Program-made: the position numbers and the translations under genes
Part shown: one piece after another, positions 13,359 to 25,554 of the stretch
How positions within the stretch are numbered: the stretch's first letter is position 1
How the letters are laid out: the number at the start of each line of letters is the position of its first letter
Assembly: GCA_945957395.1 (NCBI GenBank)
Contig: CAMFKE010000010.1
Coordinates: forward strand, 62,001-126,000
DNA: 64,000 nt
Origin: an uncultured Opitutia bacterium
GTDB taxonomy: Bacteria > Verrucomicrobiota > Verrucomicrobiia > Opitutales > UBA953
Direction of reading: 5' to 3'
Notes under the pieces: model-generated
Seen by the model: the letters and a program-made list of their open reading frames with translations, nothing else
Told to the model about the DNA's origin: nothing
Database searches by the model: none

Positions 13359-15542
13359 ATGTCCCGCCGCTCTTTCGCCCTCAGCGCCCTCGCCGCCCTC
13401 GCCGGCGCCCCCCTCCTCCTCGCCCAGCAGGCCCCCGCCGCCCCGGCCCCCTCGCCGGCGCCCGCCGCGAACGCCCCGCGCGACACCGACGGCGTCGGCC
13501 GGCTCACCTTCGTCGACGACCTGCCCGCCCAGCTCATCGCCCTGCTGGAGAAGCTCACCGGCCGCAGCGCCCTGCGCTCCGGCGACCTGCCCGGCCCGAA
13601 GATCACCTACTCCTCCGGACGCGACCTGACCCGGCGCGAAGCCATCACCGCCATCGAGAGCCTGCTGGCCATCAACGGCATCGCCGTCATCCCCCACGGC
13701 GACGCCTTCCTCAAGATCGTCCCGGCCGCCGCCAACAAGGCCGCCAACGCCGAGGCCCCGCCCCTTTACCTCGACTCGGTCGCCGACCTGCCCCCCAGCG
13801 AGCGCTTCGTCGCCCGACTGTTCACCCTGCGCAACGCGCCCTATGTGATGTTCGACGCGGCCGTGCAGTCCATGGTCAACAAGCAGCGCGGCGGCACCGC
13901 CGTGCCCATGCCGGCCGCCAACTCCGTGCTCGTCACCGATTCGCTCGCCAACATCCAGCGCATCGAGGCCGTCCTGGCCAAGGCCGACAGCGCCAGCAAG
14001 GTCGTCTTCGTGCCGCTCAAGCACACCCGCGCCGCCGAGGTGGTCAAACAGCTCAAGGCCCTCCAGGCCTCCGGCCTCAAGACCGGCTTCGCCGGCGAGG
14101 TGGGCTTCGAGGCCGGCGACGCCGTCAACCAGGTGATGGCCGTGACCAACCCCTCCAACGAGGCGCGCATCCGCGAGATCATCGCCGGCATCGACACCGA
14201 GAACGCCCCCGTCACCCGCTCCGAGCTGCTTCCCCTTCGCCACGCCGAGGCCGCCGATGTCGTGCAGCTCGTGCAAAGCCTCGCCTCCGGCACCTCCGGC
14301 GCCATCGGCCAGAACGCCGCCAACGCCGCCAACGCCGGCCGCACCAACACGCGCTCCACGCGCGGCGCCCAGGTGAGCTCCTCGCGCACCACCTCCTCCA
14401 ACGGCCAGGTCTACATTTCCCAAAACTACAACTACGACCCGTCCAAGAAGGGCGCCACCGACGACGACGCCTCCTTCAGCCCCTACTTCACCGCCGTCGC
14501 CGACACGCGCTCCAACGCCCTCGTCGTCTACGGCACCGACCGCGACCTGCGCCAGGTCAAGGACCTCATCGCCAAGGCCGATGTGCAGTTGCCCCAGGTG
14601 CGCCTCGAGGTCGTCATCGTCGAGGTCACCCTCGGCGCAGGCCAGGCCTCCGGCTTCGAGACCCTCGGGCTGGGCCTCTACACCGGCACGCAGGGCGTGC
14701 CCGACGGGCGCCACAACGGCGACTACAACTTCAACGCCGCCATGCCGGGCCTGCCCAACCAGGCCGGCTCGGGCAAGCCGCCCTTCTCCCTCACCGGCTC
14801 CCTCAAGGACTTCTCCTTGGAGATGATCTTCAACAAGTCCCGCGAGGACGCCCGCGTGAAGCTGCTCTCCTCCCCGGTCATCGTCACCTCGCACAACAAG
14901 CCCGCCCTCATCAAGGTCGGCCAGCGCCAGCCCATCATCACCGGCACCACCAACTCGACCGTCACCGCCGGCACCACCACCTCCCAGATCGACTACCAGG
15001 ACATCGGCCTGCAGGTGGACATCACGCCGCGCATCGGCGCCAACGGGGTGGTCGAGATGAATGTGCGCCAGAAGAACGAGAGCATCATCGGCAACACCAC
15101 CATCGACGGCAACCAGCAGCCCATCATCGGCAACCGCGAGGCCGAATCCTACCTCACCGCCGCCAGCGGCGAGACCGTCGTGCTCGCCGGCCTCCAGTCG
15201 TTCAACGAGACCAAGACGAAGGGCAAGGTGTGGCTGCTCGGCGACATCCCCTGGCTGGGCGAGTGGCTCTTCCACCCCGAGACCTCGCTCATGCAGAAGA
15301 CCGAGCTCATCGTCTTCCTCAAGCCCCAGGTGCTCAACCCCGCCGACACCGTGCCCGCCTCCGACACGCCCGGCCTGCGCCCCGGCTCGCTCACCAAGGA
15401 CTCCGCCCTGGGCCGCATCAACTCCGGCTCCTTCTCCGAAGTCACCGCCCCGGGCACCGTCTTCGAAAAGGAGGAGGCCGAGCGCAAGGCCGCCGCCGGC
15501 AAGAAGCCCGAGAAGACCGAGCTGCGCGGCATGCACGACTGA
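13359..15542 (+). CDS. gspD: Type II secretion system secretin
   Basis: A 727-residue outer-membrane secretin with a signal peptide (MSRRSFALSALAALAGAPLL), N0/N1-N3 periplasmic repeats (SGDLPGPKITYSS, then VVFVPLKHTRAAEVVKQL and LLPLRHAEAADVVQLV) and the C-terminal secretin core (VRLEVVIVEVTLG, SPVIVTSHNKPALIKVGQ, DIGLQVDITPRIG, GETVVLAGLQ, PWLGEWLFHPETS). The N3 linker is unusually rich in Ala, Asn, Ser and Thr (about 305-350). It forms the pore through which folded proteins leave the periplasm. No pilotin gene is obvious. GspE, F and pseudopilins follow on the same strand. Unlike its neighbours it starts 61 bases after the previous stop, without overlap. Confidence 0.93.
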   Translation: MSRRSFALSALAALAGAPLLLAQQAPAAPAPSPAPAANAPRDTDGVGRLTFVDDLPAQLIALLEKLTGRSALRSGDLPGPKITYSSGRDLTRREAITAIESLLAINGIAVIPHGDAFLKIVPAAANKAANAEAPPLYLDSVADLPPSERFVARLFTLRNAPYVMFDAAVQSMVNKQRGGTAVPMPAANSVLVTDSLANIQRIEAVLAKADSASKVVFVPLKHTRAAEVVKQLKALQASGLKTGFAGEVGFEAGDAVNQVMAVTNPSNEARIREIIAGIDTENAPVTRSELLPLRHAEAADVVQLVQSLASGTSGAIGQNAANAANAGRTNTRSTRGAQVSSSRTTSSNGQVYISQNYNYDPSKKGATDDDASFSPYFTAVADTRSNALVVYGTDRDLRQVKDLIAKADVQLPQVRLEVVIVEVTLGAGQASGFETLGLGLYTGTQGVPDGRHNGDYNFNAAMPGLPNQAGSGKPPFSLTGSLKDFSLEMIFNKSREDARVKLLSSPVIVTSHNKPALIKVGQRQPIITGTTNSTVTAGTTTSQIDYQDIGLQVDITPRIGANGVVEMNVRQKNESIIGNTTIDGNQQPIIGNREAESYLTAASGETVVLAGLQSFNETKTKGKVWLLGDIPWLGEWLFHPETSLMQKTELIVFLKPQVLNPADTVPASDTPGLRPGSLTKDSALGRINSGSFSEVTAPGTVFEKEEAERKAAAGKKPEKTELRGMHD

Positions 15543-15584
15543 TCCGCAGGCCTAAGAACGAAGCACCGCACCACACGCGCCACC

Positions 15585-16367
15585 ATGCCCCCTCGCCCCC
15601 ACTCCGTTCCGCGTTGCGCGTTCCGACTTCCGCGTCTCCTCGCCGCACTGTCATTGGCCGGCGGATGCGCCTTCGCCGCCGATGCGACGCCCCCGGCGGC
15701 ACCCGCCACGGTCGAGTACCGCCGCGCCTCCCTCGCCGAACGCCCTCCCTTCGCCAAGGCCGAGCGCGGCGCCGTCAAACCCTCCTCCGGCGGCCCCCTC
15801 GACCTGCGCGGATTCTTCGGCTCCGGCGACAGCCTCGAGGTCAGCCTCTCCCGCCCCGACGGCAAGGAATCCGCCTGGTGCAAGGTCGGCGACAAATCCG
15901 CCAAGTGGGTCGTCGACGCCGCCGACCCCGACGCCGGCACCGCCACCGTCCACTTCGACGGCATGCTCCTCCAGCTCAAGCTCGCCCGCCCCGAGCCGCC
16001 CTCCTTCACCGTCACCCCGGCCGCCGACACCGAGAAGCCCGCCAAGGCCGACCGCCCTGCCTCGCGCCGGCTCAGCGAGGCCGGACGCACCGCCATGCGC
16101 GCCGCCATGCGCGAGGGCTTCGAGCGCGCCCGCAAGGAGCACCCCGAATACTTCGACGGCACCAAGCTCACCCCGGAGCAATCCAAGGAGCGCGACGACT
16201 ACATCCGCGCCGGCATGGCCCGCGTGCGCGAATCCGTCGCCAAGGTCTCCCCGGAGGACGCCGCCCAGATTGAAAACATGCCCATGCCGGGCATGCGCCC
16301 CCGTCGCAGCGCCTCCAACACGCCGCCCTCCGACACCCCGGAGAGCGACGACACCATCACCCACTGA
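15585..16367 (+). CDS. Exported protein of the secretion operon, possibly GspC/PilP-like
   Basis: A 260-residue exported protein between gspD and gspE. The N-terminus (PRLLAALSLAGGCAFAADA) is a signal peptide, possibly with a lipobox-like LAGGC. Residues 65-130 contain LDLRGFFGSGDSLEVSLS and a KWVVDAADPDAGTATVHFDG segment that recalls the homology region of GspC/PulC (functional-motif and self-referring beta fold). The C-terminal half is helical, Arg/Glu-rich and ends in a disordered tail. I do not recognise a named family, so its role as the GspC-type link between secretin and platform is inference. Its first 17 codons cover a heptad array (15601-15635), and no alternative start occurs before the signal peptide core. 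Confidence 0.55.
   Translation: MPPRPHSVPRCAFRLPRLLAALSLAGGCAFAADATPPAAPATVEYRRASLAERPPFAKAERGAVKPSSGGPLDLRGFFGSGDSLEVSLSRPDGKESAWCKVGDKSAKWVVDAADPDAGTATVHFDGMLLQLKLARPEPPSFTVTPAADTEKPAKADRPASRRLSEAGRTAMRAAMREGFERARKEHPEYFDGTKLTPEQSKERDDYIRAGMARVRESVAKVSPEDAAQIENMPMPGMRPRRSASNTPPSDTPESDDTITH
15601..15635. repeat. Heptad array inside the 5' end of the gspC-like gene
   Basis: Five uninterrupted 7-mers, ACTCCGT TCCGCGT / TGCGCGT TCCGACT / TCCGCGT, follow the ATG at 15585. A left arm may exist at 15554-15581 but is badly degenerate. The array is translated as part of the leader. Confidence 0.6.
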
Positions 16368-16382
16368 TCAGGACCGCCCGCC

Positions 16383-18065
16383 ATGCCCGCCGACTCCCCC
16401 GACGCCCCCGGCCTGCGTTCCCTTTTCCCCACCCTCTCCGAGAACGACGCCCTCGAGGTGCTCGCCTCTCCCCGCGGCCTTCGCTGCTCGCGCCTCGCCG
16501 ACATCACCGGCGACGCCCCCGCCGATGTCGCCCGCCGCCTCGCCGCCTCCTGCGGCCTGCCCTTCGCCGACACCTGGTCGCCCGCCGCCAACCCCGGCGC
16601 CTTCGCCCCGCCCTCGGTCCTGCACGAATTCGCCGGCATGCCCGAAGCCGCCGACGCCCCCGCCGGCACGCTCCCGCTCGTCACCGCCTGGCCCCCCTCC
16701 CCGCGCGACTCCCGCTGGCTGCGCTCCCTTTGCGGGCTCTCCCCCTCCTGGCGCATGGCCGCCCCCGATTCCGTCGAGGCCGCCCTGCGCGCCGGCTTCG
16801 GCGTGGGCGCCGGCAGCCTCGACGCCGCCGAAGCCTCCCTCGCCGAAGACGCCGTGCGCGACGAAGCCGAGGACGAGGCCGCCGCCGTCATCCGCTTCGT
16901 GCGCGATGTCATCGCGCGCGGCGCCGCCGACCGCGCGACCGACATCCATTTCGAACCGGGCGAAGGCACGCTCAACATCCGCTACCGCATCGACGGCGCC
17001 CTCGTGCCCGTGCCCGTCCCCGCCAACCTCGTCCGCTTCCAGTCCGCCCTGCTCTCGCGCCTGAAGCTCATGGCCAAGCTCGACATCGCCGAGCGCCGCC
17101 GCCCGCAGGACGGCCGCATCGCCTTCTCCGCCGACGGCGCCACCTGGGACATCCGCGTATCCACTTTGCCCACACTCCACGGCGAGAGCGTCAGCCTTCG
17201 TCTCCTCGCCGCCAACGCCGAGCCCCCCGGCATCGGCGACCTGGGCTTCCTGCCCGACGACGAGCGCGCGCTCAACGCCGTGCTCGCCCGCCCCCACGGC
17301 ATCATCCTCGTCACCGGCCCCACCGGCTCCGGCAAATCCACCACGCTCAACGCCTGCCTGCGCCGCGTGCGCTCCCCCGAGCTGCGCCTCATGACCGTCG
17401 AGGACCCCGTCGAGTACCGCGTCACCGGCGTCAACCAGACCCAGGTTCAGCCCGAGATCGGCCTCAACTTCGCCAGCGTCCTGCGCAGCGTGCTGCGCCA
17501 GGACCCGGATGTCATCATGGTCGGCGAAATCCGCGACCGCGAGACGGCCGACATCGCCATCCGCGCCGCGCTCACCGGCCACCTCGTCATGAGCACGCTG
17601 CACACGAACGACGCCGCCGGCGCCGTCACGCGTCTCACCGACATGGGCGTGGAGCCCTTCCTCATCGCCTCGGCGTTGGAGATGGTCATCGCGCAGCGCC
17701 TCGTGCGCCGCCTTTGCACGCACTGCAGCGCGCCGCTGGATTACACGCCCGAGTGGCTCTCCTCCCGGCTCGCCGCGCTGGAGATCGACCCGGCCGAGGC
17801 GGCCGCCCGCCCCGTGCTGCGCCGCCCCGTCGGCTGCGAACACTGCCGCGGCATCGGCTACAAGGGTCGCCTCGCCATCGTCGAGCTGCTCCCCGTCACC
17901 GACTCCGTTCACCCGCTCATCGTCGAGCGCCGCCCGGCCTCCGACATCCGCGAGGCCGCCCTGCGCGACGGCATGCGCACGCTCCAGCGCTGCGGCTGGG
18001 AACAGGCCAAACGCGGACTCACCACCCTCGACGAGGTCCTCACCTACGCCGAGAAAAGCGTCTGA
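16383..18065 (+). CDS. gspE: Type II secretion ATPase
   Basis: A 560-residue secretion ATPase of the GspE/PilB family. A divergent N-terminal MshEN-like domain precedes the ATPase core: RATDIHFEPG (about 187), the Walker A GPTGSGKSTT at about 312-321, the Asp box LMTVEDPVEYRV, Walker B in RQDPDVIMVGEIRD, and His box LVMSTLHTNDA. A zinc site follows with two Cys pairs (CTHC and CEHC) in the C-terminal part. It powers pseudopilus assembly from the cytoplasm. All nucleotide-binding residues look intact. The array at 18071 lies between this gene and gspF. Confidence 0.95.
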   Translation: MPADSPDAPGLRSLFPTLSENDALEVLASPRGLRCSRLADITGDAPADVARRLAASCGLPFADTWSPAANPGAFAPPSVLHEFAGMPEAADAPAGTLPLVTAWPPSPRDSRWLRSLCGLSPSWRMAAPDSVEAALRAGFGVGAGSLDAAEASLAEDAVRDEAEDEAAAVIRFVRDVIARGAADRATDIHFEPGEGTLNIRYRIDGALVPVPVPANLVRFQSALLSRLKLMAKLDIAERRRPQDGRIAFSADGATWDIRVSTLPTLHGESVSLRLLAANAEPPGIGDLGFLPDDERALNAVLARPHGIILVTGPTGSGKSTTLNACLRRVRSPELRLMTVEDPVEYRVTGVNQTQVQPEIGLNFASVLRSVLRQDPDVIMVGEIRDRETADIAIRAALTGHLVMSTLHTNDAAGAVTRLTDMGVEPFLIASALEMVIAQRLVRRLCTHCSAPLDYTPEWLSSRLAALEIDPAEAAARPVLRRPVGCEHCRGIGYKGRLAIVELLPVTDSVHPLIVERRPASDIREAALRDGMRTLQRCGWEQAKRGLTTLDEVLTYAEKSV

Positions 18066-18070
18066 TCAGG

Positions 18071-18126
18071 AGGTTTCAGGTTCAGGGTTCAGCCCCCTGA
18101 AACCTGAAATCTGAACCCTGAAATCC
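18071..18126. repeat. Compact inverted heptad array between gspE and gspF
   Basis: The left arm is AGGTTTC AGGTTC AGGGTTC (18071-18090) and the right arm CTGAAAC CTGAAAT / CTGAACC CTGAAAT (18097-18124), with a loop of only a few bases. The arms are reverse complements with one 6-base unit. The gspF ATG starts 10 bases later. Confidence 0.9.
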
Positions 18127-18136
18127 TTCTCCGCCC

Positions 18137-19381
18137 ATGCCCCGCTTCTCCTACGACGCCCTCGACGCCGACGGCCGCCCCTCCAAGGGCGAGCTGGACG
18201 CCGCCGACCGCCGCGCCGCGGCCCGCCGGCTCGCCGCGCAGGGGCTGCGCGTCTCCCGCCTGACGGAATCCGGCAAGGCCGCCTCGTCCGTCTCCGAGGG
18301 CGGCGAGGACCACCCCGACCTCCACCGCGCGCGCCCGCTGGGCGTGCACCCGGTGGCCTCCGCGTTCGTCGCCGGATTCGCCGAGCTGCACGAGGGCGGC
18401 ATGCCCGTGGGCGACGCCGTCAAGCTGATGGCCTCGCGCGTGACCGAGCCCGCCCTGCGCGCGCTCACCCGCGGGCTCTGGCGCGACCTCTCCGAGGGCA
18501 TGCCGCTCTCGCAGGCCATGGCCAGGCGCCCCGTGCTCTTCGACGAATCCACCGTGCACCTCGTGGCGGCGGGCGAGGCGACGGGCAACCTCGTGCCGGT
18601 GCTCACCCGCGTGCGCGCCTCCTTCGAGGCCCGCGAGGCCCTGCGCGCCAAGGTCCTCGGCGCCCTCGCCTACCCGCTGCTGCTCGCCGGCGCGGCCACG
18701 CTGGTGCTGGGCATCTTCGTCTTCGCCCTCATGCCGGTGATGGAGACGCTCATGGGCCAGCTCGGCGGCAAGTTCCCCTGGTATGTGCAGGGGCTCATGC
18801 TCGCCGCCTCCGTCTTCGTCAAAGGCCTGCCCGTCTTCCTCATCCTCGGCGCCTTCGTCGCGCTGCGCCTTCGCAAGGCCCGCGTCGACCCCGCCGCTCG
18901 CCGCTCGCAGGACGCGCTCGCCCTGCGCATACCGCTCGTCGGGCGCGCCATCGTGCACGCCGAGGCCGCCCGGCTCGCCGAACTCCTCTCCACGCTGCTG
19001 GGCTCCGGCGTGAACGCCGCGCAGGCCCTGAAGCTCGCCGAGAAGCCCATCGGCAACGACGAGCTGCGCTCGCGCTATGTCGTCGCGCGCCGCCGCGTGC
19101 ACGACGGCGCCGCCATATCGCTCGCCCTGCGCGACACCGGCATCTTCGAACCCGAGGATCTCGACCTGGCCTCCGTGGGCGAGAACGCCGGGGCGCTCCC
19201 GCGCTCCTTCGCGTCCGTCGCGACGCGCCGCTCGAAGGCGTTCGACGCCGCGCTCTCGCGTATCGTGAAAACCCTTACGGCCGTGTTCTTCTCGGTCGTC
19301 GTGACGCTGGTGGGCTTCTGCCTCGTCTCCATCATCACCACCAGCCTCTCCGTCAGCAAAAACGTCAGCGTGCGCCGATAG
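18137..19381 (+). CDS. gspF: Type II secretion inner-membrane platform protein
   Basis: A 414-residue GspF/PilC protein with two tandem T2SSF domains. The N-terminus (FSYDALDADGRPSKGELDA) is typical. Helix-rich domains contain EGGMPVGDAVKLMA near 93 and TLLGSGVNAAQALKLAEKP near 290, the repeated L-x-x-G-x-x(L/A)xxA pattern. Three transmembrane segments are visible at about 176-200 (LLLAGAATLVLGIFVFALMP), 216-240 and 380-405. It forms the inner-membrane platform around which GspE acts. The expected family length is about 400, so it is complete. Confidence 0.95.
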   Translation: MPRFSYDALDADGRPSKGELDAADRRAAARRLAAQGLRVSRLTESGKAASSVSEGGEDHPDLHRARPLGVHPVASAFVAGFAELHEGGMPVGDAVKLMASRVTEPALRALTRGLWRDLSEGMPLSQAMARRPVLFDESTVHLVAAGEATGNLVPVLTRVRASFEAREALRAKVLGALAYPLLLAGAATLVLGIFVFALMPVMETLMGQLGGKFPWYVQGLMLAASVFVKGLPVFLILGAFVALRLRKARVDPAARRSQDALALRIPLVGRAIVHAEAARLAELLSTLLGSGVNAAQALKLAEKPIGNDELRSRYVVARRRVHDGAAISLALRDTGIFEPEDLDLASVGENAGALPRSFASVATRRSKAFDAALSRIVKTLTAVFFSVVVTLVGFCLVSIITTSLSVSKNVSVRR

Positions 19382-19419
19382 TCGCGCGCCCCTATCCACA
19401 GCCAACCCCGCATACGCCT

Positions 19420-19860
19420 ATGAAACGCCCCGTCCGCCGCGCCGCGCGCGCCTTCACCCTCATGGAGATCCTCGTGGTCATCGCCCTCATCGCGGGCATC
19501 GCCACGCTCGTCATGACCAACATCGGCGGCATCTTCGGCAGCGCCTCCGCGGACCTCGAGAAGACCAAGGTCCGCGAGGGCTTCGAGACGCCCCTGTTCT
19601 CCTACCGCATGAATGTCGGCACCTACCCGTCCACCGAGGAGGGCCTCAAGGCCCTGCTCGTCGCCCCGGACGGCAAGGCCGACCGCTGGAAGGGCCCCTA
19701 CGTCAAGGGCGAGAAGTCGCTCGTCGACGGCTTCGGCAAACCCTACGGCTACCGCTTCCCGGGCACGCACAACCCCTCCGGCTACGACCTGTGGTCCAAC
19801 GGCCCCGACCAGCAGGAAGGCACCGCCGACGACATCGGCAACTGGGAGCCCGCCAAGTAA
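19420..19860 (+). CDS. gspG: Major pseudopilin
   Basis: A 146-residue prepilin of the type II secretion pseudopilus. The leader is Arg-rich (KRPVRRAARA) and cleavage would fall before FTLMEILVVIALIAG, giving mature N-terminal Phe and Glu5. The residue at -1 is Ala, not the usual Gly. The C-terminal half carries the GspG signature YPSTEEGLKALLV, WKGPYVK and the calcium-site region YDLWSNGPDQQ...DDIGNW. It forms the main filament pushed through the secretin. Confidence 0.95.
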   Translation: MKRPVRRAARAFTLMEILVVIALIAGIATLVMTNIGGIFGSASADLEKTKVREGFETPLFSYRMNVGTYPSTEEGLKALLVAPDGKADRWKGPYVKGEKSLVDGFGKPYGYRFPGTHNPSGYDLWSNGPDQQEGTADDIGNWEPAK

Positions 19861-19890
19861 GTGAACGGCGGACTCGTCCGCCTCGGGAAC

Positions 19891-20006
19891 GCAAAAGGCA
19901 GAGTGCAAAATGCAAAAATCGCACCGTCGCACGCGCGCGCCGTCGCCTTACGCCGGCCGTAGGACCGCGCACCCGGCATCCTTCCGCCTTTTGCGTTCCG
20001 CATTCA
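19891..20006. repeat. Inverted heptad array overlapping the gspH start
   Basis: Left arm GCAAAAG GCAGAGT / GCAAAAT GCAAAAA (19891-19918); right arm GCCTTTT GCGTTCC / GCATTCA (19986-20006). The 67-base loop holds the 12-mer GCCGGCCGTAGG (19952-19963), identical to that at 1962-1973. The upstream ATG of gspH is inside the left arm and an in-frame TTG (19991) is inside the right arm. Confidence 0.85.
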
Positions 20007-20443
20007 CCTTGATGGAGGTGCTCGTCGTGCTCGCGCTCATCGCGCTCGTCGGCTCGCTCTCCCTTCTCGATTTCGGCTCGCTCCTCGACCGCGCCGCCAC
20101 GCCCTCCCCGCTCGAGACCCTCACCGCCGCCGTCGACGCCGCGCGCTCGGGCGCCCTCAACGCGGGCGCCCCGACCAGGCTCCTCTACGACGCCCAATCC
20201 GGTTCGCTGCGCCTGCACACCGGCGCCGCCTCGCGCGACTTCGCCTTCGCCACGCCCGCAGGAGTGACCTTCACCCTACCCGCCGACGCCGCCGAGGGCG
20301 CCGAGCGACCGCTTGAAGCGCTCGTGTTCCACCCCTCCGGTTGCGCGCTGCCCGCCGCCATCGAGCTCACCGTGGGCGCCGAGCGCTCCAGCTACCGGCT
20401 GGAGCCGTTCTCCGGCGCCCTGACACGGGAGGAAAGCCGATGA
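19910..20443 (+). CDS. gspH: Minor pseudopilin, GspH-like
   Basis: A prepilin of up to 177 residues with the hydrophobic stem SAFTLMEVLVVLALIALVG. If translation begins at the ATG at 19910 the leader is 30 residues and is coded by the repeat array. If it begins at the in-frame TTG at 19991 the leader is 4 residues (MRSA), a more usual length. Residue -1 of the cleavage site is Ala and Glu5 is present. The rest resembles GspH in size and in the beta-rich C-terminus (ASRDFAFATPAGVTF). It overlaps the gspI ATG by 4 bases. Confidence 0.78.
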   Translation: MQKSHRRTRAPSPYAGRRTAHPASFRLLRSAFTLMEVLVVLALIALVGSLSLLDFGSLLDRAATPSPLETLTAAVDAARSGALNAGAPTRLLYDAQSGSLRLHTGAASRDFAFATPAGVTFTLPADAAEGAERPLEALVFHPSGCALPAAIELTVGAERSSYRLEPFSGALTREESR

Positions 20444-21168
20444 AACGCGGAAATCGGAACGCGGAAATCGGAATGCGGAGCGCACGGATGCGCGCCGGAT
20501 TCATCTCCCTGCCGAAGCGCCCCACGCCCGGTTCCTTATTCCGCATTCCCTCGCCCGCGTTCCGCGTTTCCGTGCGCCCCGCTTTCACGCTGCTGGAGGT
20601 GCTCGCGGCCACCGCCATTTTCGGCATCGCCACCGCCGGCCTCTTCATGGCGTTCGCCCCCACCCACGAGGCGCTCTTCAGGCTTTCCAACATCGCCTCC
20701 GACGACGGCGACCTCGAGATCGCCAAGGCCTTCGCCGCCGACGCGCCCGACCGCGACACGCTCCTGCGCGGGCTGGACACCACGCTGCCCGACGGGCGCA
20801 CCCTGCGCTGGCGCGCCGAAATCACGCCCACCGACACCGAGGCGCTCTTCCGCGTGTTCCTCACAGCCGAACGCGACGGGGCTCCCCCGCTGACCGCCGA
20901 TTACCTGCATTTCGAACCGCGCTGGCTCCTGCCCACCGACGAGAAACCGCGCTGGCTGACACACTCGGCAAGCTCCCCCTCGGCGCCTCCGGGCGGCGGC
21001 GGCACCCCGGGCAAACCGCCCCCCGGCGGCAAGCCCGGCTCGGGCCAGGCTTCGGGAGAAAAGCCTTCCGGCGGGAAACCCGGAGGCGACCGCCCCTCGT
21101 CCGGTCGGCCGCAAAACACCAAACCCGGCGGCGGCCCGTCCGCCCCCCCGCGAGGCGCGACACGGTGA
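20440..21168 (+). CDS. gspI: Minor pseudopilin, GspI-like, with Gly/Pro-rich tail
   Basis: The prepilin stem PAFTLLEVLAATAIFGIATAG is followed by a compact pilin domain (to about residue 180) and an unusual 60-residue tail of PGGKPG-like and PSGGKPGGD-type repeats that ordinary GspI lacks. With the ATG at 20440 (ATGA overlap with gspH) the protein has 242 residues and a 48-residue leader that reads straight through a heptad array. The in-frame GTG at 20572, directly after the array, would give a 4-residue leader (VRPA). Residue -1 is Ala. The tail could be a surface-exposed linker, which is inference. Confidence 0.75.
   Translation: MKRGNRNAEIGMRSARMRAGFISLPKRPTPGSLFRIPSPAFRVSVRPAFTLLEVLAATAIFGIATAGLFMAFAPTHEALFRLSNIASDDGDLEIAKAFAADAPDRDTLLRGLDTTLPDGRTLRWRAEITPTDTEALFRVFLTAERDGAPPLTADYLHFEPRWLLPTDEKPRWLTHSASSPSAPPGGGGTPGKPPPGGKPGSGQASGEKPSGGKPGGDRPSSGRPQNTKPGGGPSAPPRGATR
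20447..20572. repeat. Inverted heptad array in the gspI leader
   Basis: Left units GCGGAAA TCGGAAC / GCGGAAA TCGGAAT / GCGGAGC GCACGGA (20447-20488); right units GTTCCTT ATTCCGC / ATTCCCT CGCCCGC / GTTCCGC GTTTCCG (20531-20572). All are in exact 7-base register. The whole element lies between the gspI ATG and the alternative GTG. Confidence 0.9.
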
Positions 21169-21797
21169 GAACGCCCATTTCTCGCCTCCCGCTGCGCCGG
21201 CGCGCCTTCACCCTGCTGGAGACGCTCATGGCCACGGCCCTTTTCGCCGCTCTCATCGCCGGCGCCACGGTCGTCCTTTTCCAAGTCTCCGCCGCCTGGG
21301 CCACCCAGGCCGAAGACCCGGTGCTCGACCGCCACGCCGAAAACCTCGAGCGCTTCCTGCGCCGCACCCTCACGGAGGCCCAAGGCGCGGTGACCGAGCC
21401 GACCGCCGAGCAGATATCCGAAGAGCACGCCCTGCTCTCGGTGCGGATGCCCGAAAACCTTCCCTGGCACGAGATCCTTGGCGTCGCCGGCGGCGATGTG
21501 ACCGGACGCCTCGCCTTCCGCGACGGCGCCCTGATCCTCCACTGGCAGACCGCCACCGAGCGACGCCTGGCGCTCGCCGAGCCGCACCGCATGGTGCTCT
21601 CGCCCTGGGTCGTCTCCGCGCGCATCTTCCTGCACGACGCCGTGAACAACCAATGGACCGAGTACGCGCCGAGCGAGCCCGTCGCGGGCCAACCCGGCTT
21701 CAACGCCTCGCGCGGCCTGCGCGTGCTGCGCGTCGAGCTCGACCGGGGCGGCCACCGACGCGTATTGCAAATCCTGATACGAAGGAGCGGCTCATGA
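21165..21797 (+). CDS. gspJ: Minor pseudopilin, GspJ-like
   Basis: A 210-residue prepilin starting at a GTG that overlaps the gspI stop (GTGA). It has a short Arg-rich leader (LPLRRR), Ala at -1, and the stem AFTLLETLMATALFAALIAG. The region after it (about 40-210) has the larger beta-sheet of GspJ, with WVVSARIFLHDAV and a C-terminal LRVLRVELDRGG. Chain overlap with gspK (ATGA) continues the coupled pattern H-I-J-K. Confidence 0.82.
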   Translation: MRTPISRLPLRRRAFTLLETLMATALFAALIAGATVVLFQVSAAWATQAEDPVLDRHAENLERFLRRTLTEAQGAVTEPTAEQISEEHALLSVRMPENLPWHEILGVAGGDVTGRLAFRDGALILHWQTATERRLALAEPHRMVLSPWVVSARIFLHDAVNNQWTEYAPSEPVAGQPGFNASRGLRVLRVELDRGGHRRVLQILIRRSGS

Positions 21798-22939
21798 ACG
21801 CCATGACAGTCCGGAACGCGGAACTCGGCACGCGGAACTCGGGTCGGCCCTCCGCAGCCTTTGCCCAAATCGTTTGCCCGGGCACCCCATGGTCCCGCAG
21901 ACCAATCCGCACTCCACAATCCGCACTCCGCAATCGCCGCGGCGTCGCCCTGCTCTTCACGCTCGGATTCGTCGCGCTGCTCGCGATGCTCGTGACCGGC
22001 CTCATGGCCACCCTGCGCACCCGCCTCGTCGAGGGCGAGATGCGCGCCCAGCGCTCCTCGCTTCGCCTCGACGCCGAATCGGCGCTGGCCGTGGTGCGCG
22101 CGCGCCTCGCGGTGTTCGAAAGCGACGCCTCCGGCATCTACCTCAACGGCGCCGACCTGGAGCTCCTCGAGGCCGACCCCCTCGCGGGATGGGCGCCCGC
22201 CGACGGCGCCACGGTGACGGTGCGCCTGAGCGACGCCTCCGCCCTCGTCTCGCTCAACTCCGCCCGCCCGCGCGAGCTCACCGCCCTCTTCGAGGACCTC
22301 GGCATCTCCTCCGACCGCGCCGCGTCCCTCGCCGACTGCCTCGCCGACTGGACCGACGCCAACGACACCGCGCGCCTCAACGGCGCCGAGGCCGAGGCCT
22401 ACGGCGTCCCCGGCAAACCGGCGAACCGGCCGCTGCGCTCCTTCGCCGAGCTGCGCCAGGTGAAAGGTTTCGATGAACTCTTCTTCGCACCGGACGGCAC
22501 GCTCAACGCCACCGGTCGCGAGCTGGCCGCGGTGAGCACATTCCTGGGCGCCAACGCCCGCCCCAACATCAACACCGCCGAAGAACCTATCCTGCGCGCT
22601 CTCGCCGCGCGCACGGGCGCCGACCCCGCGACCATCCTGGCCCTGCGCACGCCGCTGGACTACCCGAACGACCGCACCCACCTCGGCGTCCTCAAAAACG
22701 CCGGCGACCTCGCGCAAATCGGCTCCCCCGAAGGCCTTGCCGAACGCATCGCCTTCGCCTCCTCCGCCCTGCGCGCGACCATCACGGTCAGCAAGGGAGA
22801 CCTGCGCTACACACTCGACGCCCTGCTCGCTCCCGGCGGCTCCGACTCCGCTCCCGTAGCCGTCTCGGCGCGCGCGGACGAAGGGCTGCTCTGCGAGGAC
22901 CCGCCGGAGGCCGCTGTCGTCTCGACCGACGCCGAGTAA
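21794..22939 (+). CDS. gspK: Pseudopilin tip protein GspK
   Basis: A 381-residue GspK, the large pseudopilin at the filament tip. The stem is GVALLFTLGFVALLAML, preceded by NRRG with the usual Gly at -1, and the C-terminal part has the two helix-hairpin-helix-like repeats (SLNSARPRELTALFEDLG, NINTAEEPILRALAARTG). The ATG at 21794 overlaps the gspJ stop. No ATG, GTG or TTG occurs in frame between 21806 and the stem, so the repeat array at 21812-21938 must be translated into a roughly 48-residue leader. The end overlaps the minus-strand gene at 22807-23298 by 133 bases. Confidence 0.88.
   Translation: MNAMTVRNAELGTRNSGRPSAAFAQIVCPGTPWSRRPIRTPQSALRNRRGVALLFTLGFVALLAMLVTGLMATLRTRLVEGEMRAQRSSLRLDAESALAVVRARLAVFESDASGIYLNGADLELLEADPLAGWAPADGATVTVRLSDASALVSLNSARPRELTALFEDLGISSDRAASLADCLADWTDANDTARLNGAEAEAYGVPGKPANRPLRSFAELRQVKGFDELFFAPDGTLNATGRELAAVSTFLGANARPNINTAEEPILRALAARTGADPATILALRTPLDYPNDRTHLGVLKNAGDLAQIGSPEGLAERIAFASSALRATITVSKGDLRYTLDALLAPGGSDSAPVAVSARADEGLLCEDPPEAAVVSTDAE
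21812..21938. repeat. Inverted heptad array inside the gspK leader
   Basis: Left units CGGAACG CGGAACT / CGGCACG CGGAACT / CGGGTCG (21812-21846); right units AATCCGC ACTCCAC / AATCCGC ACTCCGC / AATCGCC (21904-21938). Right arm reads as the reverse complement of the left type. A 57-base loop separates them. Confidence 0.9.
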
Positions 22940-23298
22940 GGCGTCGCCGGCACGGCGTGCCCGAAGGCCGCTCCGCACCGAGCGCACACCCAGTGGTCGG
23001 GCTCCGGGTCCTCCTCCGGTTCCGGACACCCGCCCTCCTCCTCCGCCAGCTTCTTCTGCAAGCCCATGAAGCCCGCCAACCCCGCGATGCACAGCGCGCC
23101 GAAACCGGCGCAAAAATACGCGAGGGTCGGCTCGATGAGCGCCGCGATCATCGTGGCGCCCGCGAACAGCGCGAAACAGATGCCCACGGGCACCATGACG
23201 CCGTAGTCCTCGCCCTGCGGGCGTCGCGACGCCTCCTGCGACTCATCCAAGGCGTAGAAGGGGTGGACTCGGTCGCAACGGCAACGGGGACAGTTCAT
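22807..23298 (-). CDS. Small zinc-ribbon membrane protein
   Basis: A 163-residue protein with an N-terminal CPRC motif (residues 3-6), two transmembrane helices (VPVGICFALFAGATMIAAL and LAYFCAGFGALCIAGLAGFM) and a second Cys pair CARCGAAFG near residue 105, followed by a Ser/Ala-rich tail. The two Cys pairs suggest a zinc ribbon with membrane hairpin. I know no name for it. The tail overlaps gspK on the opposite strand by 133 bases, so either the C-terminus is dispensable or the true end is earlier. The start MNCPRCRC was chosen over an upstream ATG that adds 13 unlikely residues. Confidence 0.6.
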   Translation of the reverse strand: MNCPRCRCDRVHPFYALDESQEASRRPQGEDYGVMVPVGICFALFAGATMIAALIEPTLAYFCAGFGALCIAGLAGFMGLQKKLAEEEGGCPEPEEDPEPDHWVCARCGAAFGHAVPATPYSASVETTAASGGSSQSSPSSARAETATGAESEPPGASRASSV

Positions 23299-23494
23299 AC
23301 GATGGGTCTCGGCGGCGGGCAAAGTGAGGGCAGCCAACAGGTCCGAATCACCATTTCAACACCCTTGCTGCGGCGCAGCGCCGAAATCGTAACAAGCTCT
23401 CGACGACAGGTTTATCCACGGAACTCTCGGATCGCGCCGGCGGTGTTTTCGGGGAAAGGTGGCGGGGTGTCGAGCGCCGCGAGCGAGGGGGATA

Positions 23495-23528
23495 AAAGCG
23501 AAACCCGCTCCGGGTCGGAGCGGGTTTC
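23495..23528 (-). terminator. Terminator after tRNA-Gln
   Basis: Minus-strand GAAACCCGCTCC / GGAGCGGGTTTC, 12-bp stem with a 5-nt loop, then CGCTTTTA. It ends the two-tRNA unit. Confidence 0.75.
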
Positions 23529-23532
23529 AAGG

Positions 23533-23606
23533 TGGTAGTACTACTAGGATTTGAACCTAGACAAAGGGTGTCAGAAACCCTTGTGCTGCCATTACACCAT
23601 AGTACC
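23533..23606 (-). tRNA. tRNA-Gln (anticodon CTG)
   Basis: A 74-nt cloverleaf on the minus strand. It has acceptor GGTACTA / TAGTACT (with a G1-U72 pair), the Gln-type D arm GTGTAATGGCAGCAC, an anticodon stem AGGGT around loop TTCTGAC, T-arm CTAGG-TTCAAAT-CCTAG, and encoded CCA. Its D arm is the standard Gln form. It is transcribed after tRNA-Thr, 26 bases away. Confidence 0.93.
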
Positions 23607-23632
23607 AAAAAGACTTTTCAGGGCGCCGCAGG

Positions 23633-23708
23633 TGGAGCCGGCAGTCGGATTCGAACCGACGACCTTCCGCTTACAAGGCGGATGCACTACCAACTGTGCT
23701 ATGCCGGC
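23633..23708 (-). tRNA. tRNA-Thr (anticodon TGT)
   Basis: A 76-nt cloverleaf with acceptor GCCGGCA / TGCCGGC, anticodon stem CCGCC around TTGTAAG, T-arm GTCGG-TTCGAAT-CCGAC, discriminator T and encoded CCA. All stems pair well. It is the first gene of the tRNA pair. Confidence 0.95.
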
Positions 23709-23856
23709 AGACAACTGCGGGCCGTGAAAGGTTTGTCAAGGGACTTTCCCGAAATTTGTCCCCACATCAAGCGCCGAAGTGAGGGAAACGGGAACAGCGG
23801 GAGCGATACCTTTCGATGAAGGGGCCGCCCACCCTTGGCCCGCGATCCGCGTTTCC

Positions 23857-25554
<1,698 letters not shown>

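Follow-up and report, generated by a model that had tools for sequence, protein, structure and literature searches.

The gspK reading frame of an uncultured Opitutia bacterium runs through a palindromic heptad array that is probably translated and removed with the prepilin leader

The gsp operon of an uncultured Opitutia bacterium raises the question of how GspK is made when a palindromic block of 7-base repeats stands between its start codon and the codons of its membrane helix, and of what becomes of the residues that the repeats encode. The window, that is, the whole stretch of 64,000 nucleotides that was analysed, holds the following features around the gspK start.

21165 to 21797, + strand: gspJ, with an array-free leader
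21782 to 21787, + strand: AAGGAG, a Shine-Dalgarno-like motif 6 nt 5' of the ATG at 21794 (from the sequence)
21794 to 21796, + strand: likeliest gspK start codon, an ATG in an ATGA overlap with the gspJ stop codon TGA at 21795-21797 (from the sequence)
21794 to 22939, + strand: gspK precursor open reading frame, 381 aa (profile and fold matches)
21812 to 21842, + strand: heptad arm 1, CGGAACG CGGAACT CGGCACG CGGAACT CGG (from the sequence and Tandem Repeats Finder)
21843 to 21901, + strand: inter-arm loop, read as about GRPSAAFAQIVCPGTPWSRR and partly common to an element elsewhere in the genome (C6:85092-85200)
21902 to 21935, + strand: heptad arm 2, inverted, CAATCCG CACTCCA CAATCCG CACTCCG CAATC (from the sequence and Tandem Repeats Finder)
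21938 to 21946, + strand: predicted prepilin peptidase site R-G↓V, residues 49-51 of GspK (alignment with 16 GspK relatives)

Read codon by codon from the ATG at 21794, the gspK frame contains a second ATG at 21803 and then, as the first-pass annotation had claimed, no ATG, GTG or TTG before the hydrophobic stem; the next is the ATG at 21986, which falls within the stem, that is, within the GspK membrane helix. The frame crosses both heptad arms and the loop, about 42 codons, and the leader up to the Gly of RRG↓VALLFTLGF counts 50 residues if it starts at 21794 and 47 if it starts at 21803, in agreement with the roughly 48 first estimated. Since there is no canonical start 3' of the array, only translation through the array can yield a prepilin-competent GspK. 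The AAGGAG motif lends weak support to initiation at 21794, because this genome is generally without Shine-Dalgarno use: in an 864-kb sample such motifs precede 20 of 575 genes compared with 3.9% of random windows, which is no enrichment, and overlapping starts have them somewhat more often (5/25 vs 1/42).

The product was recognized as GspK by profile and by fold. Pfam T2SSK_1st matched above its cut-off (E 3.7e-14), NCBIfam T2SS_GspK matched residues 49-349 with E 1.3e-27 and 97 bits, short of the curated cut-off (130 bits), and Foldseek aligned the AlphaFold model with the solved GspK/XcpX chains 3ci0_K, 5vtm_X, and 9a1f_T (E <= 2.2e-10). In this model residues 1-37 are unordered (pLDDT < 50), and a long helix starts at residue 44. 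A class III signal is present, with Gly at -1 followed by the hydrophobic stem (RRG↓VALLFTLGFVALLAML), and it aligns with that of the relatives; one prepilin peptidase gene was found in the genome.

The leader is far longer than is usual for this family. In the 16 GspK relatives, leaders measure approximately 6-27 residues compared with 50 here, the alignment gap of the relatives coincides with the array, and removal of the array would leave a leader of ordinary length, about 9 residues (MNAMTV-RRG). The range of 5-15 residues first given as normal for GspK was too narrow, both for these relatives and for the prepilin superfamily, whose published range is 6-26 residues (PMC4471445); the 50 residues exceed that range, which is typical of the superfamily and no strict requirement. 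Type IVb prepilins offer a partial parallel in that leaders above the usual 6-10 residues are processed, although their published leaders reach only about 26-30 residues and, unlike that of GspK, are not built of DNA repeats (PMC4471445). Among the 19 N_methyl prepilins of the genome that were checked, leader arrays occur besides gspK only in gspH and gspI of the same operon. The residues added to GspK are positively charged and would lie on the cytoplasmic side.

The gspK element is a 126-base palindromic block in which two inverted, degenerate arms of 7-base repeats flank the loop. Each arm matches at 16/21 positions at period 7. Markov simulations of the 64-kb window reached a maximum of 17 and gave 2.1 expected arms at >= 15, compared with 16 seen; a single arm like those of gspK is thus within the reach of chance in a stretch of that length. 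Chance does not account for a pair of inverted arms that share the CGGA heptad class, stand 60 nt apart, and have siblings elsewhere in the genome. Sibling pieces were found with E values of 2e-7 to 1e-4, and the C6:85092-85200 element shows a 68% match to the gspK element that spans the arms and a portion of the loop. An arm resembles the reverse complement of its partner (0.65) more than that of arms of other arrays (0.51; 21 pairs), with 0.58 for the gspK pair. Because all six frames stay open across the array, its heptads being stop-free in every one, an open path through it is expected by construction, and its openness is no evidence of selection for reading. The idea that arrays within genes are specially stop-free was rejected (5/9 vs 19/60, p 0.15, not significant).

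Elements of this kind are abundant in the genome. Approximately 69 arrays, mostly between genes, were counted in the 864-kb sample, in which period-7 clusters number 112 compared with 9-19 for the control periods 4, 5, 8, 10, 11, and 13. Arms are common to several elements, whereas loops are mostly private, the gspK loop being shared in part with one element. Several heptad classes coexist, among them CGGANNN, TGAAAAC, AAAANGC, and CACCTNN. At codirectional junctions, the distance from the upstream stop to the array is often no more than about 10 nt, and a start codon usually follows 0-17 nt after the array; the gene finder favours starts after arrays through codon use, which biases the intergenic counts in that direction and leaves the stop-side distances unaffected. 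The family appears nearly confined to this genome, as the class GTTTTCNG repeated three times gave 15 matches here compared with 3 in another 140 genomes from the order, and CGGANNN repeated four times gave 19 here compared with 4 in 28 relatives. When named genomes were searched for congeners, only Cerasicoccus frondis came up, at 31%. In one locus (L058:14716-14967), an MsbA-like ABC transporter has its start codon in the loop of an array, so that arm 2 is read as an N-terminal tail, with a later GTG possible.

Within the window, arrays cluster in the gsp operon (15597-21940), with one upstream and then others at the E/F, G/H, H/I, and J/K junctions; two tRNA genes lie 3' of the operon on the - strand (23536-23708). 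Three of these sites are listed here.

18079 to 18127, + strand: array in the gspE-gspF spacer
19887 to 19993, + strand: 5' end of gspH, with an array arm at 19887-19918 that contains an ATG at 19910, and an alternative start, TTG, at 19991
20440 to 20574, + strand: 5' end of gspI, with an ATG at 20440, a CGGA array at about 20442-20570, and a GTG at 20572 right after arm 2 as an alternative start (MRPA↓FTLLE)

Thus gspH and gspI have a start codon directly after arm 2 (TTG 19991 and GTG 20572), and gspK has none.

Arrays also lie in frame within conserved proteins. Mfd is intact, with 1241 residues, and carries three in-frame arrays in its N-terminal 500 residues (L173, G000:C6:108401-113400); two of them, loops included, at residues ~98-131 and 306-358, are absent from 15/15 aligned relatives, and the third array reads NPQSAIRNPQS. 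In UvrA (L180, G000:C6:176001-178000, nt 953-1081), a 46-residue insert at residues 320-365 lies between the two ATPase halves and includes QSAIRNPQS; the corresponding segment of Geobacillus UvrA (2r6f) is 2 residues long. In an HrpA-like helicase (L104:8649-8743), an in-frame hairpin array occupies a linker and adds ~20-25 residues relative to two relatives. Inserts in conserved genes measure about 100-160 nt. Further in-frame arrays were seen in a helicase and in DUF3142, AMP-ligase, DUF4838, and RHS proteins, as read in this genome's own sequence; an array in a P-type ATPase (L178), which adds only a few residues, was not counted as a clean insert. If genes such as mfd, uvrA, and hrpA are expressed, the organism must translate these elements, since no alternative start avoids the array. 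By analogy, the inserts in Mfd, UvrA, and HrpA are the strongest indirect support for read-through of the gspK array.

We therefore consider it likely, as the reading that best fits the sequence, that a coding palindromic element, similar in behaviour to those of Rickettsia, inserted into the gspK leader, and that it is translated there and then lost when prepilin peptidase cuts the leader off. A lineage-specific palindromic element of ~126 nt would have entered the leader codons in frame, just past the gspJ-overlapping start, and the path would have stayed open because the heptads are stop-free in every frame. Translation would begin at the ATG at 21794 and add 42 residues by reading the two arms and the loop, which would give the precursor a positively charged, unstructured leader of 50 residues, and prepilin peptidase would cut after Gly50 to release what is presumably a functional GspK. 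The first-pass annotation had proposed just this, that GspK can be translated only through the array and that the peptidase takes the leader off; the missing canonical start, the encoded peptidase, and the unordered residues 1-37 all agree with it, and translation and cleavage are what we infer from them. It had also ascribed the tolerance of the repeat to the cleavage of the leader. Cleavage may well explain tolerance at gspK, but it is no general reason, since UvrA, Mfd, and HrpA, which are not cleaved, keep their inserts in the mature protein; in such proteins linkers and tails seem to suffice. It weighs against this reading that intergenic arrays normally have a start codon after arm 2, and that gspK is an exception to the genome's own pattern.

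The array could also be a control element that sets the amount of GspK relative to GspJ through an RNA hairpin or the nascent peptide, a role that is compatible with translation and removal of the array but that we regard as unlikely. Arrays do sit at the operon junctions E/F, G/H, H/I, and J/K and abut starts throughout the genome, and heptamer repeats just 5' of starts in Beggiatoaceae have been proposed as translational control sites (PMC4679880). However, the predicted fold of the gspK array is no more stable than that of shuffled sequences (z -0.97), so that an unusually stable hairpin was rejected; the arms pair only in their constant tetrads, and other arrays lie deep within coding sequence, where such a role is impossible. 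A search of 15000-24000 of the window against Rfam returned the two tRNAs only and matched the array to no structured-RNA family.

Somewhat less probable still is initiation at a non-canonical codon close to arm 2 or beyond it, which would leave GspK a short leader and make the array an ordinary intercistronic hairpin. It would bring gspK into line with gspH and gspI, which carry TTG and GTG after arm 2, and with the start codon that most codirectional intergenic arrays have ~0-17 nt after arm 2, and the gspK array sits in a gene junction as other arrays do. The codons speak against it: the only in-frame near-cognates before the cleavage site, ACG 21830, ATC 21869, and ATC 21905, all lie within the array and would still have arm 2 read, whereas the first one 3' of arm 2, CTG 21950, would lose the cleavage site. 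Such a start had been named from the outset as what could overturn the reading through the array, and the near-cognate codons make it improbable.

That the insertion made gspK a casualty, uncoupled or inactivated and with no functional precursor made, we judge equally improbable. A leader of about twice the published maximum (PMC4471445) would fit such an outcome, as would the second, array-free GspK paralog at C4:297141-298034, for which a possible GTG start would give a leader of ~14 residues. Against this, pseudogenization would be expected to leave stops, and the mature part of GspK comprises 331 open codons with gene-like codon use (mean log-odds +0.45 per codon, compared with -0.20, not gene-like, in the array region), keeps its conserved columns, and has the GspK fold in the model. 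A sequence or assembly error, the other objection raised at first and one invited by an uncultured, repeat-rich genome, is very improbable as the source of the open path, since the AAT before CGC CGC GGC needs two substitutions to give ATG, the only starts in the two other frames (TTG 21861, TTG 21874, and ATG 21889) are all 5' of arm 2, so that even a frameshift or single indel leaves arm 2 read in gspK, and other genes carry open inserts of the same kind.

With translation and removal of the array as the preferred reading for gspK, the wider picture that we propose, with about equal confidence for and against, is of a lineage-restricted family of ~200 heptad palindromes (an extrapolation from 69 in 864 kb) that has spread both to gene junctions and, in frame, to coding genes, core repair genes among them (three copies in mfd and one in uvrA), where many can be translated in whatever frame through their stop-free heptads; gspK would be the extreme, expressible only through the element, which is hidden in a disposable leader. 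A phylum-wide occurrence of heptad arrays in prepilin leaders, of the RIPHSAF type, was rejected, as the exact pattern gave 0 matches in 387 genomes; a protein search for such leader arrays in 213 genomes returned 30 loci, with a clear array in none. In some Lentisphaerae-like genomes (L073, L074, L075, and L094), prepilins share a repeated long leader (SFPVKRSFSPLPKSAFTLIEL) that resembles another repeat read in a leader.

Among bacteria, it is chiefly Rickettsia that is known for in-frame coding palindromes, and in the open-access literature on heptamer or palindromic coding inserts we found no description of the present combination. Another case, of different composition and in a Verrucomicrobiota-type genome, would show that core bacterial proteins can repeatedly gain segments from dispersed repeats. 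It would make the sites that tolerate inserts testable, as well as the spread of heptamers as mobile DNA against their retention for translation control, and GspK would be a clean test case, as the insert should disappear from the mature protein. The STRR sequences of heterocystous cyanobacteria are short tandem heptamer repeats dispersed in the genome, like the arrays here, but they form families of fixed units and, unlike these, are not known to occur as inverted pairs. In Beggiatoaceae, Cyanobacteria, and Bacteroidetes, heptamer direct repeats of TAACTGA are mostly intergenic and lie just 5' of starts (PMC4679880). They share with the present arrays a dispersed 7-bp tandem repeat near starts, and TAACTGA is also found in some open reading frames, at protein ends; they consist of one fixed unit in direct orientation (PMC4679880), whereas the arrays here are degenerate inverted pairs that also occur mid-protein in conserved proteins. 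Geobacter metallireducens has 49 heptanucleotide elements of four tandem heptamers each, within and between genes; they have one consensus, GGACCGG (PMC2700814), and, unlike the arrays here, are not known as in-frame coding inserts. The arrays appear to behave like Rickettsia palindromic elements, a likeness of behaviour that does not by itself make them members of that family. The Rickettsia elements, according to the summary in PMC10969869 (Ogata et al. 2000, 2002), are ~100-150 bp long and occur in frame in many unrelated genes and between genes, apparently tolerated. Both are thus palindromes of roughly 100-150 bp inserted in frame, here in the conserved genes for Mfd, UvrA, and HrpA; unlike the elements so described, those of this Verrucomicrobiota-type host have arms of degenerate tandem heptads, fall into several classes, and carry loops that are mostly private.
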